A stretch of DNA of 44,248 nucleotides from a virus: positions 1 to 44,248 of IMG/VR virus record IMGVR_UViG_3300042353_000754; one strand, written 5' to 3'. This document shows, piece after piece, positions 10,818-14,549 of this stretch. A program made the position numbers and the translations under genes. The notes under the pieces are model-generated. The model made no database searches, was not told the origin of the DNA, and saw nothing but the letters and a program-made list of their open reading frames with translations. Numbering within the stretch: the first letter of the stretch is position 1; each line of letters begins with the position of its first letter.

Positions 10818-11579
10818 ATGAACATTACAAAACCTACAAGTTTTGGGCCTATGAACAAACCTAAATGCGTTTTGTTTGGGCCTGAAGGTTCAGGTAAATC
10901 TACTTTAGGTTCTAAGCTTGAAAAACCTTTATTTCTAAATGTTGAAGATGGAATTTCAGGCATCGATGTTGATGCAATCCGCATTAATACTTGGACTGAA
11001 TTTGTATCTACCATCAAAGAAATTCTAAAGGAAATTTCTGGAAGCAAAACATTTGACTATAAGAACATAGTCATTGATTCTTTAACTGCTTTAGAAAGGT
11101 TGTTGCATCAACACATTTGCACCCAAAGCAATTCAAGTTCTATTGTACTTGCTTGCGGGGGATATGGTAAAGGGTTGGTTGAAGCATCAACCCAAATGTC
11201 ATTAGCAATCAATTCCCTATGCAGTAAAAAAGATTTGGGTGTTTGGTTCTTAGCTCATAGTACTATCAAAAATGTTAACGATCCTACCCGTGGAGAGTAT
11301 GCAGCTTTCCAAGTGAGGGGAGATAAGAGTCTAACGGAATGGGCTACCAGTTGGGCCGATCTAATCGGGTTTATTGAAATCGATTTGTTGATTGATGAAG
11401 ATGGTAAAAGCGTTATTAAAAAGGAAGGTGATAATGTAAAGCGTACGGTTACTGTTACTCCTAGAGGCGGTTTAACCGCAAAATCTAGAATACCGGGTAT
11501 TTCTGGTGTAATGTCTGTTGATGTATTTGTTTCTAAAATCAATTCTATTTTTTCTAGTTCTAAGAAGGAGAATGTATAA
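10818..11579 (+). CDS. Sak4-type RecA-like ATPase
   Basis: 253 residues. The Walker A box GPEGSGKST is at residues 21-29; NIVIDSLTAL serves as Walker B; VWFLAHSTIKNVNDPTRG is a later sensor-like segment. The order and length fit the phage nucleotide-binding family (AAA_24) that contains Sak4, a RAD51-related single-strand annealing protein. The start at 10818 is set by AAAGGGAGG 7 bases upstream. The gene is followed, with a one-base overlap, by a DUF669-like gene, a pairing common for Sak4, where the partner acts like a single-strand binding protein. Confidence 0.85.
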   Translation: MNITKPTSFGPMNKPKCVLFGPEGSGKSTLGSKLEKPLFLNVEDGISGIDVDAIRINTWTEFVSTIKEILKEISGSKTFDYKNIVIDSLTALERLLHQHICTQSNSSSIVLACGGYGKGLVEASTQMSLAINSLCSKKDLGVWFLAHSTIKNVNDPTRGEYAAFQVRGDKSLTEWATSWADLIGFIEIDLLIDEDGKSVIKKEGDNVKRTVTVTPRGGLTAKSRIPGISGVMSVDVFVSKINSIFSSSKKENV

Positions 11580-12004
11580 TGTCTGTTGAAAATTACGATG
11601 CTTTTGGCAATGGTTCAGATGATTTTGAAATTTTTGGTGCTGAAGAAGCTAAAGAAATTTTAAAGGGTGATATACTTGCAGCGGGTGATTATCCAATAAC
11701 AATAATCAAAGCTGAAATGCGATCCAAAGAATTATCTAAATGGATTGCATTAACTGTTCGTATTGAAGATCCGCATGAAATGAGTGGGAGAGTTAAAACC
11801 TTTACCATGTACATTCAGGGAGGCCATGCAAACCCAAAAGTTTGTAGCATTCATGCAAAGATTCGCCAATCCCTAGACAAAGCTTTAGGTATGGAAAAAC
11901 TCACCTTAAGAGGCATCATAGGCCAATCTTGTATGGTTAAAATAAAGAACTCTGAAAAAGATGGCAATGTTTACGAAAACATTGAAAAATTCTTTTCGGT
12001 TTAG
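11579..12004 (+). CDS. DUF669-like single-strand DNA-binding candidate
   Basis: 141 residues. After an acidic N-terminus it shows the DUF669 pattern: an LAAGDYPITIIKAEMRSKEL opening (only part of the domain), a central strand run with TMYIQGGHANPKV, and a C-terminal NVYENIEKFFSV. DUF669 proteins occur next to recombinases and helicases in phages and are thought to bind single-stranded DNA. It shares its ATG with the stop of the Sak4 gene (TAATG) and uses the AAGGAG inside that gene's end. A terminator follows at 12016. Confidence 0.72.
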   Translation: MSVENYDAFGNGSDDFEIFGAEEAKEILKGDILAAGDYPITIIKAEMRSKELSKWIALTVRIEDPHEMSGRVKTFTMYIQGGHANPKVCSIHAKIRQSLDKALGMEKLTLRGIIGQSCMVKIKNSEKDGNVYENIEKFFSV

Positions 12005-12015
12005 TTTTTAATTTT

Positions 12016-12049
12016 TGGGGGAGGAATGAAAATTCCTTCCCTTTTTTTT
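12016..12049 (+). terminator. Rho-independent terminator
   Basis: GGGGAGGAAT pairs with ATTCCTTCCC around a short GAAA-type loop, followed by eight T. It lies between the two DUF669-like genes; the second follows only 14 bases later, so partial read-through is likely. Confidence 0.82.
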
Positions 12050-12062
12050 ATGAGGTTATTTC

Positions 12063-12446
12063 ATGGATGAACTAATTTTTTCGCCTGATGAATGTCAACC
12101 AATTCCCAAAGGAACTTATACCGCAAGAGTTCTTAAAGCAGAAATCAAAACATCAAAAGCTGGAAACAAATACATTTCTTGTGATGTTCAAATTATTCAA
12201 GGATCTTCCCAAGGTAAATTAATTGATTGCAATTTCCATCTTTGGGCAAATGATTCTAAATTTCGTTCTGATTCAAGAAGGAAATTTGCAAGGCTTGTTT
12301 CATCTTGTGGCATTCAAACAGAGATCAAGGTTAATGACCTATCAGTTATTGTTGATAAACCTTTCCTTGTTGATATCGGAGAACAGGAAGATAATTTTGG
12401 CAATGTGAATTGCATCAATGGATTTAATAAGTTGAGGGGAAAATAA
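12063..12446 (+). CDS. Second DUF669-like protein
   Basis: 127 residues with the same layout as the neighbour at 11579: IPKGTYTARVLKAEIKTSKA at the start, the long strand NKYISCDVQIIQGSSQGKLI, a FRSDSRRKFARLVSSCG helix and a C-terminal FGNVNCINGFNKL. The match to DUF669 is clearer here. The two genes probably come from an old duplication and may form a hetero-oligomer or bind different partners. It shares one base (TAATG) with the following gene. Confidence 0.75.
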   Translation: MDELIFSPDECQPIPKGTYTARVLKAEIKTSKAGNKYISCDVQIIQGSSQGKLIDCNFHLWANDSKFRSDSRRKFARLVSSCGIQTEIKVNDLSVIVDKPFLVDIGEQEDNFGNVNCINGFNKLRGK

Positions 12447-12937
12447 TGGCAAGTGTTTCAAGGCATAGCGAAAAACTTCACCGTATTCAATACCAGATAC
12501 ATGGGCAAAAAAGAAAATCATTTTATGTTGAAAATATTGGTGATGATGAAATTAAAAATCTTTTTTCTAATGTGGAAGAACTATTGTTAATTCAAAATAA
12601 TAAAGGATTAACTAAGCAATCTGAAAAATTATCTAATTGGCTTGAATCAATAAAAGGTTCTGCTGTTCATTCAAAATTAATTAAATCAGGATTGCTTGGA
12701 GATAAAGAGAAAAACAAAGTTAAAAAAGAAATACCTGATATTCTTTTTTCATGGCATGAAGTAAAGAAAATAAATTCTGTTTTACAAAACTTTTATTCTC
12801 ATTTGTTTTTAAATGAATACCCTTTCTTGTTAAACGATTTTGAATTTAAAAGGTTTTTAGAAGTAAGAAATATAATGGATAAAAAAATCAGCAAATTAAT
12901 TCCAGAAGAAAAGAACAAGGAGATTTGCAATGCTTAG
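12446..12937 (+). CDS. Stand-alone integrase N-terminal-like domain protein
   Basis: 163 residues. The first 90 residues (MASVSRHSEKLHRIQYQIHG, KRKSFYV, NVEELL, LSNWLESI, KLIKSGLL in order) follow the arm-binding/SAM-like N-terminal half of planctomycete tyrosine recombinases: strand pair R-x-I-x-(FY), G-x-K-R-K, a helix with V-E-x-L-L, then W-L and K-L-x-x-x-G-L. The catalytic half (R...H-x-x-R...Y) is absent; instead there is an unrelated lysine-rich helical C-terminus. It overlaps the helicase gene by 8 bases, so its role is probably in replication rather than integration. The resemblance is from memory of the family. Confidence 0.55.
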   Translation: MASVSRHSEKLHRIQYQIHGQKRKSFYVENIGDDEIKNLFSNVEELLLIQNNKGLTKQSEKLSNWLESIKGSAVHSKLIKSGLLGDKEKNKVKKEIPDILFSWHEVKKINSVLQNFYSHLFLNEYPFLLNDFEFKRFLEVRNIMDKKISKLIPEEKNKEICNA

Positions 12938-14549
12938 AAAATACCAGCAAGATTCAGTAGATGCTTTATTCCAGTTTCATCAAGACAACCCTAGTAAATC
13001 AACCGTTATTGTAATACCTACCGGGGGAGGTAAAACTAGGGTAATGGCTGAAGTAATCCGTAAATCATTTGAGGCAAACCATGATTGCAAGGGAATGATT
13101 CTTTCCCATGTAAAGGAACTATTAGAGCAATCAGAAAACACTTGTAAGGGATATGCAATTGCAACAGGTTTACCAGTTGAATCAATTGGAATCTTTTCAG
13201 CATCAATGAAACGAAAAGAAATCAAACCGTTGACAATTGCGGGTATTCAATCCGTATATCGTAAAGCTGATTCTTTTGGTGTATTAGATTTTGTAATGAT
13301 TGATGAATGCCATTTGATTAGCCAAAACAAAGAAACGATGTACAGGAAGTTTTTATCATGCTTGAAGATTCGTAATCCAAAATTAAAGGTAATAGGTTTA
13401 ACAGCTACACCATACAGATTGCAAAGCGGAATTATATTTGGAGAGGGCAAAACATTTGATGATTGTTGTTACGCTATTGGTGTTAAAGATTTAATAACAG
13501 ATGGATATCTTTCCCCATTGATAACCTTTGCATCTGATTCACCTGATTTAAAAAATGTAAGAATTCGGGCGGGAGAATTTTTAGATACCGATTTAAACAA
13601 AGTTCTTGAAACAGAAGAACTAGTTCAATCAGGTGTTAACGATGCAATCAAAAAAGCTAAAGATAGAAATTCAATTTTAGTTTTTGGTACAAGTGTTCGC
13701 CATGCTGAAATGATTCTTGATGAACTTAAGAAACAGAACCAAAGTTGCAGTTTGATTACTGGTGAAACACCTTTAGAAATTAGAGATTTTACAATCAATT
13801 CTTTTAGGGAAAATAAAATCAAATGGTTGGTAAATGTTGCAGTTTTAACAACTGGATTTGATGCACCCAATATTGATTGTGTAGTTGTCATGAAACCCAC
13901 AATGAGTAAAGGATTATGGTATCAGATGGTTGGGCGGGGGTTCAGGTTGAACCAAGGCAAACAAAACTGTTTAGTTCTTGATTATGGTGATAATGCAATT
14001 AGACATGGTTGTATAGATCAAATCGAAGTATCTGCCAAAGGGATTGAAATACCATCAGCAAAGGTAAAGAAATGTCCAGCTTGCAAACTTGTTTACAAGA
14101 TTCATATTCCTGTATGCCCATCTTGTGGATATGTCAAACCAAGGCATGAGATACCAGAAATATCATCTAAATTAAGCAATCAACAAAGTAAGGGTGATAT
14201 TCTAAACGGAATGAAACCTAGAGAATTTGACATAGTTTCAAGCGTTTATTCCATATACCGTAAGCACCCCCAAGCAGAACCTTGCATAATGGAAACCCAT
14301 GAAACACTTTCAGGAACATTAATCAAATCATTTCATTCATTAAAATCAGGTTTAGAATTTTCTGTATGGAAATGGTTGAAGAATCTTACAACTGATATAC
14401 CTAAACATCATTGGCATTTAGATAAAAATAAAATCCAATCAGTAGATTTTTTAGATGCTTTATCAAAGCCAATAGGTATAATCGCACACAAAAACGAAAA
14501 AGGTTATTACCAGATTGATTCATATCAGTTTGAAAAAGTATCAGTTTAA
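12930..14549 (+). CDS. SF2 DNA/RNA helicase with zinc site
   Basis: 539 residues. Motifs in order: Q-tip Y5-Q-x-D-S, Walker A PTGGGKT (30-36), DECH box IDECH (124-128), motif III GLTATPYR (near 157-164), motif V TGFDAPNIDCVV, motif VI QMVGRGFR (near 333), and a C-x-x-C...C-x-x-C zinc site (CPACKLVYKIHIPVCPSCG, near 385-403). This is the DEAD/H superfamily 2 layout used by many phages as replication or branch-remodelling helicases. It begins inside the previous gene behind AAGGAG and is followed by the Prim-Pol gene, so it is part of the replication module. Confidence 0.92.
   Translation: MLRKYQQDSVDALFQFHQDNPSKSTVIVIPTGGGKTRVMAEVIRKSFEANHDCKGMILSHVKELLEQSENTCKGYAIATGLPVESIGIFSASMKRKEIKPLTIAGIQSVYRKADSFGVLDFVMIDECHLISQNKETMYRKFLSCLKIRNPKLKVIGLTATPYRLQSGIIFGEGKTFDDCCYAIGVKDLITDGYLSPLITFASDSPDLKNVRIRAGEFLDTDLNKVLETEELVQSGVNDAIKKAKDRNSILVFGTSVRHAEMILDELKKQNQSCSLITGETPLEIRDFTINSFRENKIKWLVNVAVLTTGFDAPNIDCVVVMKPTMSKGLWYQMVGRGFRLNQGKQNCLVLDYGDNAIRHGCIDQIEVSAKGIEIPSAKVKKCPACKLVYKIHIPVCPSCGYVKPRHEIPEISSKLSNQQSKGDILNGMKPREFDIVSSVYSIYRKHPQAEPCIMETHETLSGTLIKSFHSLKSGLEFSVWKWLKNLTTDIPKHHWHLDKNKIQSVDFLDALSKPIGIIAHKNEKGYYQIDSYQFEKVSV

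Follow-up and report, generated by a model that had tools for sequence, protein, structure and literature searches.

The window analysed here, a 44,248-nucleotide stretch of viral DNA (IMG/VR record IMGVR_UViG_3300042353_000754), encodes a 163-residue protein, termed P0001, that is a chimera of two domains. The N-terminal part is related by sequence to a domain found at the start of planctomycete tyrosine recombinases, and the C-terminal part is a small module shared with other proteins encoded at the same place in related phages. The gene itself occupies a slot between the genes for an SSB-like protein and a helicase, and it is present in the window and absent from close relatives. The features of the slot are as follows, with the evidence for each in brackets.

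12063 to 12446, + strand: SSB-like (DUF669) gene, left wall of the slot (Pfam DUF669, E 1e-14; PHROG SSB)
12434 to 12439, + strand: GAGGGG, likely ribosome-binding site of P0001 (sequence; aligned empty sites of L002, L003 and L007)
12446 to 12937, + strand: P0001, chimeric slot protein of 163 aa (open reading frame and empty-site comparison)
12446 to 12718, + strand: residues 1-91 of P0001, matched to the planctomycete tyrosine-recombinase N-terminal domain, arm-binding position (HMM, 31.3 bits; model)
12719 to 12751, + strand: residues 92-102, linker of low model confidence (model)
12752 to 12898, + strand: residues 103-151, slot module, predicted two-helix hairpin (HMM, alignment, model pLDDT 91)
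12917 to 12922, + strand: AAGGAG, lying just inside the 3' end of P0001 and probably the ribosome-binding site of the helicase gene (sequence; compared junctions)
12930 to 14549, + strand: gene for a superfamily 2 helicase, bounding the slot on the right (Pfam ResIII and Helicase_C; PHROG DNA helicase)

The original prediction, made from the letters of the window, had described an open reading frame at 12446-12937 coupled to the helicase gene, and both points were borne out. The reading frame is real, the first base of its ATG is also the last of the SSB stop codon, and its 3' end overlaps the helicase start at 12930 by eight bases. The order of genes is two SSB-like DUF669 genes, P0001, the superfamily 2 helicase and then a primase. 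The two neighbouring DUF669 genes span positions 11579-12446, the Pfam match being strong for the second and weak for the first. The AAGGAG stands seven bases ahead of the helicase ATG, and in the relatives with an empty site (L002, L003 and L007) the position of the GAGGGG serves the helicase instead. The G+C content of P0001 (26.2%) is the lowest among the 12 window genes compared, and that of the window is 34%.

Relatives of the N-terminal part were collected with four peptides that served only as bait. These peptides brought 53 loci out of 84,980 species genomes, all of them titled planctomycete, and an HMM of the integrase N terminus was built from 47 of the 53 with P0001 excluded, the other six being cut, too short or broken. 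When scored as a single sequence, P0001 matched this profile over residues 1-91, collinearly from Met1, with 31.3 bits (E 1.1e-11), while the best of 20,000 shuffled versions of P0001 reached 12.5 bits. Among 9,702 six-frame segments from 92 sequences (the window and 91 phage loci, duplicate contigs included), P0001 was the sole match at E 0.1. At the level of sequence, these comparisons demonstrate that residues 1-91 derive from the N-terminal domain seen in tyrosine recombinases of the planctomycete type and have diverged from it.

The planctomycete relatives, where unbroken and uncut, are proteins of ~380-510 aa. In six relatives scanned with Pfam, the same N-terminal domain precedes a SAM-like domain (SAM_5) running from residues 89-95 to ~194 and a catalytic domain (Phage_integrase) that starts near residues 196-210. 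With the N terminus of these integrases the comparison adds a domain that Pfam did not match in any of the six, their first 88 residues giving no hit. A profile of the SAM-like core-binding domain, prepared from 41 relatives, scored -1.2 bits on residues 92-163 of P0001, and the PF00589 catalytic domain was matched neither in P0001 nor anywhere else in the window; there was also no PF00589 integrase in 15 related records. The protein had originally been likened to the arm-binding/SAM-like part of planctomycete recombinases, and of that likeness the domain in the arm-binding position stands, whereas the SAM-like part does not. The accompanying statements that the catalytic half is missing and that no integrase exists in the window agree with the PF00589 scans.

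The identity between P0001 and its relatives is 18-25%, and 12 of the 27 columns conserved at the level of at least 80% in the integrase domain are kept, with MAS, I14, R23, E44, L46, W, L and GL as the retained core residues. The RLGK motif that follows the third strand (R in 45, L in 44, G in 46 and K in 39 of the 47 relatives) is absent from P0001, which has YVEN at residues 27-30. With RLGK lost and only 12 of 27 columns kept, the DNA bound by the relatives may no longer be recognised by P0001, whose DNA specificity may have changed or gone. The N-terminal domains of planctomycete integrases (for example L024, L040 and L065) are like P0001 in the collinear match and the core residues, but P0001 is unlike those integrases in its missing SAM-like and catalytic domains, in the loss of RLGK and in the phage module fused to it. 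The coding sequence of the domain has a G+C content of 28% in P0001 compared with 57% in the planctomycete integrases (13 of the 47 averaged).

An AlphaFold2 model of P0001 shows three strands, a helix and further helices, with a mean pLDDT of ~95 over residues 1-80. Foldseek searches with this model gave nothing under 0.001 in the PDB and nothing under 0.001 among viral models, where the first match was a DNA_BRE_C protein (weak, E 0.03). Structure re-alignment listed the arm-type integrase domains 3rmp (Z 3.8, 1.8 A over 48 residues) and 3ju0 (Z 3.7), both tied with unrelated folds whose Z was as high or higher. The original prediction was to be refuted by the lack of a structural match to recombinase core-binding domains; taken literally, that is the outcome, the two arm-type domains being the only recombinase structures listed. 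A fold search of the PDB with the model of the module alone gave no match below E 2.5.

The C-terminal third of P0001 is a slot-specific module and not filler. An HMM made from nine distinct copies of the module, P0001 left out, scored 54.3 bits on residues 104-145, where shuffled sequences reach ~13, and the P0001 module is 30-49% identical to the nine other rows of the alignment. The 'orphan domain' originally proposed is thus no orphan, since it is fused to a module common to other slot cargo. The module had first been hinted at by the L012 protein, whose match of 30 bits was barely above shuffles, and the wider set settled the matter. A faint resemblance between residues 86-101 of P0001 and the module start (2.5 bits) is not significant.

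The module is ~45 residues long and opens 13 other slot proteins encoded between the SSB and helicase genes. These proteins (the TPR type of L119, L123, L133, L126 and others) have the slot and the module in common with P0001, but they differ in that the module is N-terminal, as opposed to C-terminal in P0001, and in that other bodies stand behind it: a TPR body in L119, bodies of no Pfam family in L133 and L126, and others. When 2.9 million viral contigs were scanned, the module was located at 13 loci, all of them on the 13 contigs that the helicase search had found, and among 15 whole records it occurred once in each of five and was absent from the remaining ones. The single match in 294 planctomycete genomes was chance-like and contained two stops, and no convincing family was found for the module in Pfam and PHROGs. 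At the search sensitivity used, the module is confined to the SSB-helicase slot.

The DNA of the L144 and L133 slot genes is 72-82% identical over the module (nucleotides 1-120) and nearly 100% identical over the bodies that follow, the mosaic junction being sharp and located at the module end (~base 120). In this one pair, the module has been exchanged against otherwise near-identical cargo. The bodies of L133 (567-1265), L124 and L144 have what we take to be a PD-(D/E)XK-type look with the catalytic residues lost; a Pfam scan of the L133-type body found nothing. Pairwise dN/dS of the module could be computed for 33 of 36 pairs and was below 1 in every one; for the pairs that include P0001 it was 0.20-0.77, a rough estimate over 37 codons. 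The position of the module at the opposite end of P0001 argues, from this one case, that its retention has to do with its function as a protein and is more than that of a joint for recombination.

It could be that P0001 is a decaying relic, the drifting product of a chance fusion between an integrase fragment and an old slot gene, and the strong divergence, the low G+C content and the loss of RLGK are what decay would leave behind. However, the frame is intact and fitted to both neighbours, with the Shine-Dalgarno-like site for the helicase lying inside the P0001 end, the core residues and the Trp are kept, the fold is predicted with confidence and the module has dN/dS below 1. A relic is considered rather improbable.

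To describe the slot across the clade, related contigs were gathered by a search with the window helicase. The census comprises 40 non-duplicate records in which SSB and helicase are both present and helicase identity is more than 56%; contigs fetched twice were counted once, and the distant L152 and L159, together with L005 (a contig without SSB), were left out. The slot was empty in 10 records, held other cargo in 29 and held P0001 in one, the window. The contents were classed as listed here, with part of the cargo scanned by Pfam and near-identical proteins placed by eye.

Empty slot, 10 records: L002, L003, L007, L014, L015, L118, L131, L140, L142, L143
Module-first proteins, 13 records: L012, L119, L120, L123, L124, L126, L128, L129, L133, L134, L141, L144, L147
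HNH+AP2 proteins, 9 records: L013, L121, L122, L130, L135, L136, L145, L146, L148
GP88, 2 records: L004, L006
Radical-SAM QueE-like gene (presumed) and a second gene, 2 records: L008, L018
Third family, 2 records: L011, L132
A single further slot protein, family not assigned, 1 record: L116

L142 and L143 were scored as empty, since nothing separates the SSB stop from the helicase start and the apparent gap is an insertion within the helicase. The insertion after the DEC of motif II in the L142-L146 helicases is presumably intein-like (Hint-like). At L008:3427-4718 and L018:4707-5998, a radical-SAM gene that we take to be QueE-like is accompanied by a gene that we take to be TGT-like, which suggests 7-deazaguanine chemistry as slot cargo. 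The GP88 copy of L006 (2012-2713) carries an in-frame stop and that of L004 is intact. By eye, the slot proteins of L011 and L132 have a common N-terminal stretch unlike the module, perhaps a second slot head.

The closest relatives without the gene have helicases 98.9%, 98.1% and 89.4% identical to that of the window, and in the empty relatives with 98-99% identical helicases the SSBs are 97-99% identical. The nearest empty relatives (L003) share ~92% DNA identity with the window on both flanks, and in comparison with the empty site the insertion runs from ATG to ATG (12446-12929, 484 bases). The fusion to an integrase domain was seen once among the phage sequences searched, in the window only. 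The SSB-helicase interval is a hypervariable slot in a clade of uncultured tailed phages.

One interpretation would have P0001 bind DNA and assist the phage in its own replication, with the domain on the phage origin and the module on the helicase or SSB. Such a role would suit the site between SSB and helicase, the overlapping start and stop codons and the retention of the module in this slot only, but relatives with almost the same helicases and SSBs have an empty slot and others carry HNH, GP88, TPR or QueE-like cargo. Empty or differently filled slots mean that replication in the clade has no step for which P0001 is needed, so a service in replication is unlikely. The earlier suggestion that the domain had been recruited for replication is weakened by the same relatives.

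The HNH+AP2 genes in the slot of 9 of the 40 records are typical of free-standing homing genes. Taken with the mosaic junction at the module, they raise the prospect that P0001 is a DNA-binding regulator or a homing-associated slot protein, acting in cargo spread or in the control of early transcription. Note, however, that P0001 has no nuclease and that the HNH+AP2 proteins have no module; a role of this kind is judged improbable. A broken HNH homing endonuclease might also be imagined as the source of the N-terminal part of P0001, which would then be its AP2 domain and no integrase piece, as the AP2 domains of the slot HNH proteins occupy the same slot and presumably have a related general strand-helix layout. 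Against this, a profile of the slot AP2 domains scored -0.4 bits on P0001 compared with 31.3 for the integrase profile, a profile-profile comparison of AP2 with integrase found nothing and a Pfam scan found no HNH domain in P0001, which makes an AP2 origin very hard to credit.

The reading that is favoured, tentatively but as a serious possibility, is that P0001 is a chimeric slot cargo protein, integrase domain plus module, that interferes in trans with integrating elements. The N-terminal domain would keep a surface that binds DNA or contacts an integrase, and it would be used in trans against an integrating element of the host (a prophage, satellite or island), either blocking sites or serving as a decoy. 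The module would act as a phage-specific handle that renders the payload soluble or multimeric, or docks it on a phage partner, for example SSB or helicase, and translational coupling would cause P0001 to be made when the phage begins to replicate. As P0001 has no nuclease, blocking, decoy or recruitment is likelier than cutting. The presence of a common module in unrelated proteins at the same position speaks for a site of interchangeable payloads and less for a gene of replication, and interference with integrating elements is, as far as function can be inferred, likelier than replication service. An inhibitor of host or prophage recombinases, as originally proposed alongside the replication role, is possible and resembles the favoured reading.

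The nearest precedent for P0001 is Odn of Vibrio phage ICP1. Odn (origin-directed nuclease) combines the DNA-binding RepA_N domain of a satellite with a homing-endonuclease domain of the phage at a locus whose content differs from isolate to isolate, and its T5orf172 nuclease acts on the satellite origin, so that the DNA-binding domain of a competing element has been taken by the phage and turned against that element (PMC8263062). Odn and P0001 are alike as phage chimeras in a variable locus with an N-terminal domain related to a DNA-binding protein of a mobile element, and they differ in that P0001 has a helical module where Odn has the nuclease, and an integrase domain where Odn has RepA_N (PMC8263062). 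For P0001, the mobile-element type of the N-terminal domain is assigned by homology to integrase and DNA binding by it is putative, RLGK being lost, and Pfam and PHROGs scans found no nuclease domain in the protein, whose C terminus is the module. Domain mosaicism of phage proteins is described as fragments common to otherwise unrelated phage proteins (PMC10684548); the present case differs from that general pattern in that a single small module belongs to a single place in the genome. No report of the slot, the module or the fusion was found in titles and abstracts of the open literature, subscription papers lying outside the scope.

A broader proposal, possible though doubtful, is that the slot is a plug-in payload system in which a constant docking tag is combined with swapped bodies at either end and P0001 is the member aimed at integrating elements. 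The helical module would dock, where replication takes place, on a partner from the phage, and the bodies (TPR, others and the stolen integrase DNA-binding domain) would be joined at either module end and swapped by recombination. If this were true, the lineage could change what is brought against host or mobile-element functions. The new part is the slot system with its constant module, and the integrase fusion is a single example of it. The clade is present in dozens of public contigs and offers a defined place where small payloads swap before or behind a constant module. Two questions become testable. One is the binding partner of the module, and the other is whether DNA-binding pieces from the integrases of competing elements are taken up by phages as weapons, as ICP1 did with a satellite replication protein.

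Searches with P0001 alone gave nothing trustworthy in Pfam, PHROGs, NCBIfam, PDB sequences or phage, plasmid, viral and genome contigs. An NCBIfam match (E 1e-4, 20.4 bits against a cut-off of 1377) was taken as chance, weak matches to RhoGEF, ECT2, ribonucleotide reductase and a Helicobacter phage protein were set aside as mutually inconsistent, and the one match in 294 planctomycete genomes (E 0.0073), which lay inside unrelated frames, was also taken as chance. The window terminase was under 30% identical to known phages among the matches listed. Relatives of the primase were present in 19 of the 294 planctomycete genomes, with up to 37% identity, which fits a planctomycete host without showing it. 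The idea that all cargo consists of host mimics was rejected as unsupported: the L133 body had no relative in 246 planctomycete genomes, and the L119 TPR body had matches in 51 of the 246, TPRs being generic.

The integrase N terminus gave 80 matches in 42 of the 294 planctomycete genomes, nine of them in frames under 250 aa. For five of these nine, all from genome G172, catalytic parts were nearby or joined after internal deletions; for the remaining four no downstream part was found, and three of these lie near a contig end. In G172, the integrases of L209, L210 and L211 consist of the N-terminal domain and the catalytic end only (model positions from ~310), the parts being joined in frame in L210 and L211, so that several integrases with internal deletions are present in this one genome. 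Among the first 53 loci, eight short frames were re-examined and most continue in another frame, the exception being L023. Here, an 86-aa open reading frame (2501-2761) encodes the integrase N-terminal domain only and stands directly before a complete integrase of the same family (from ~2799); it is possibly a free-standing domain in bacteria or a remnant of duplication.
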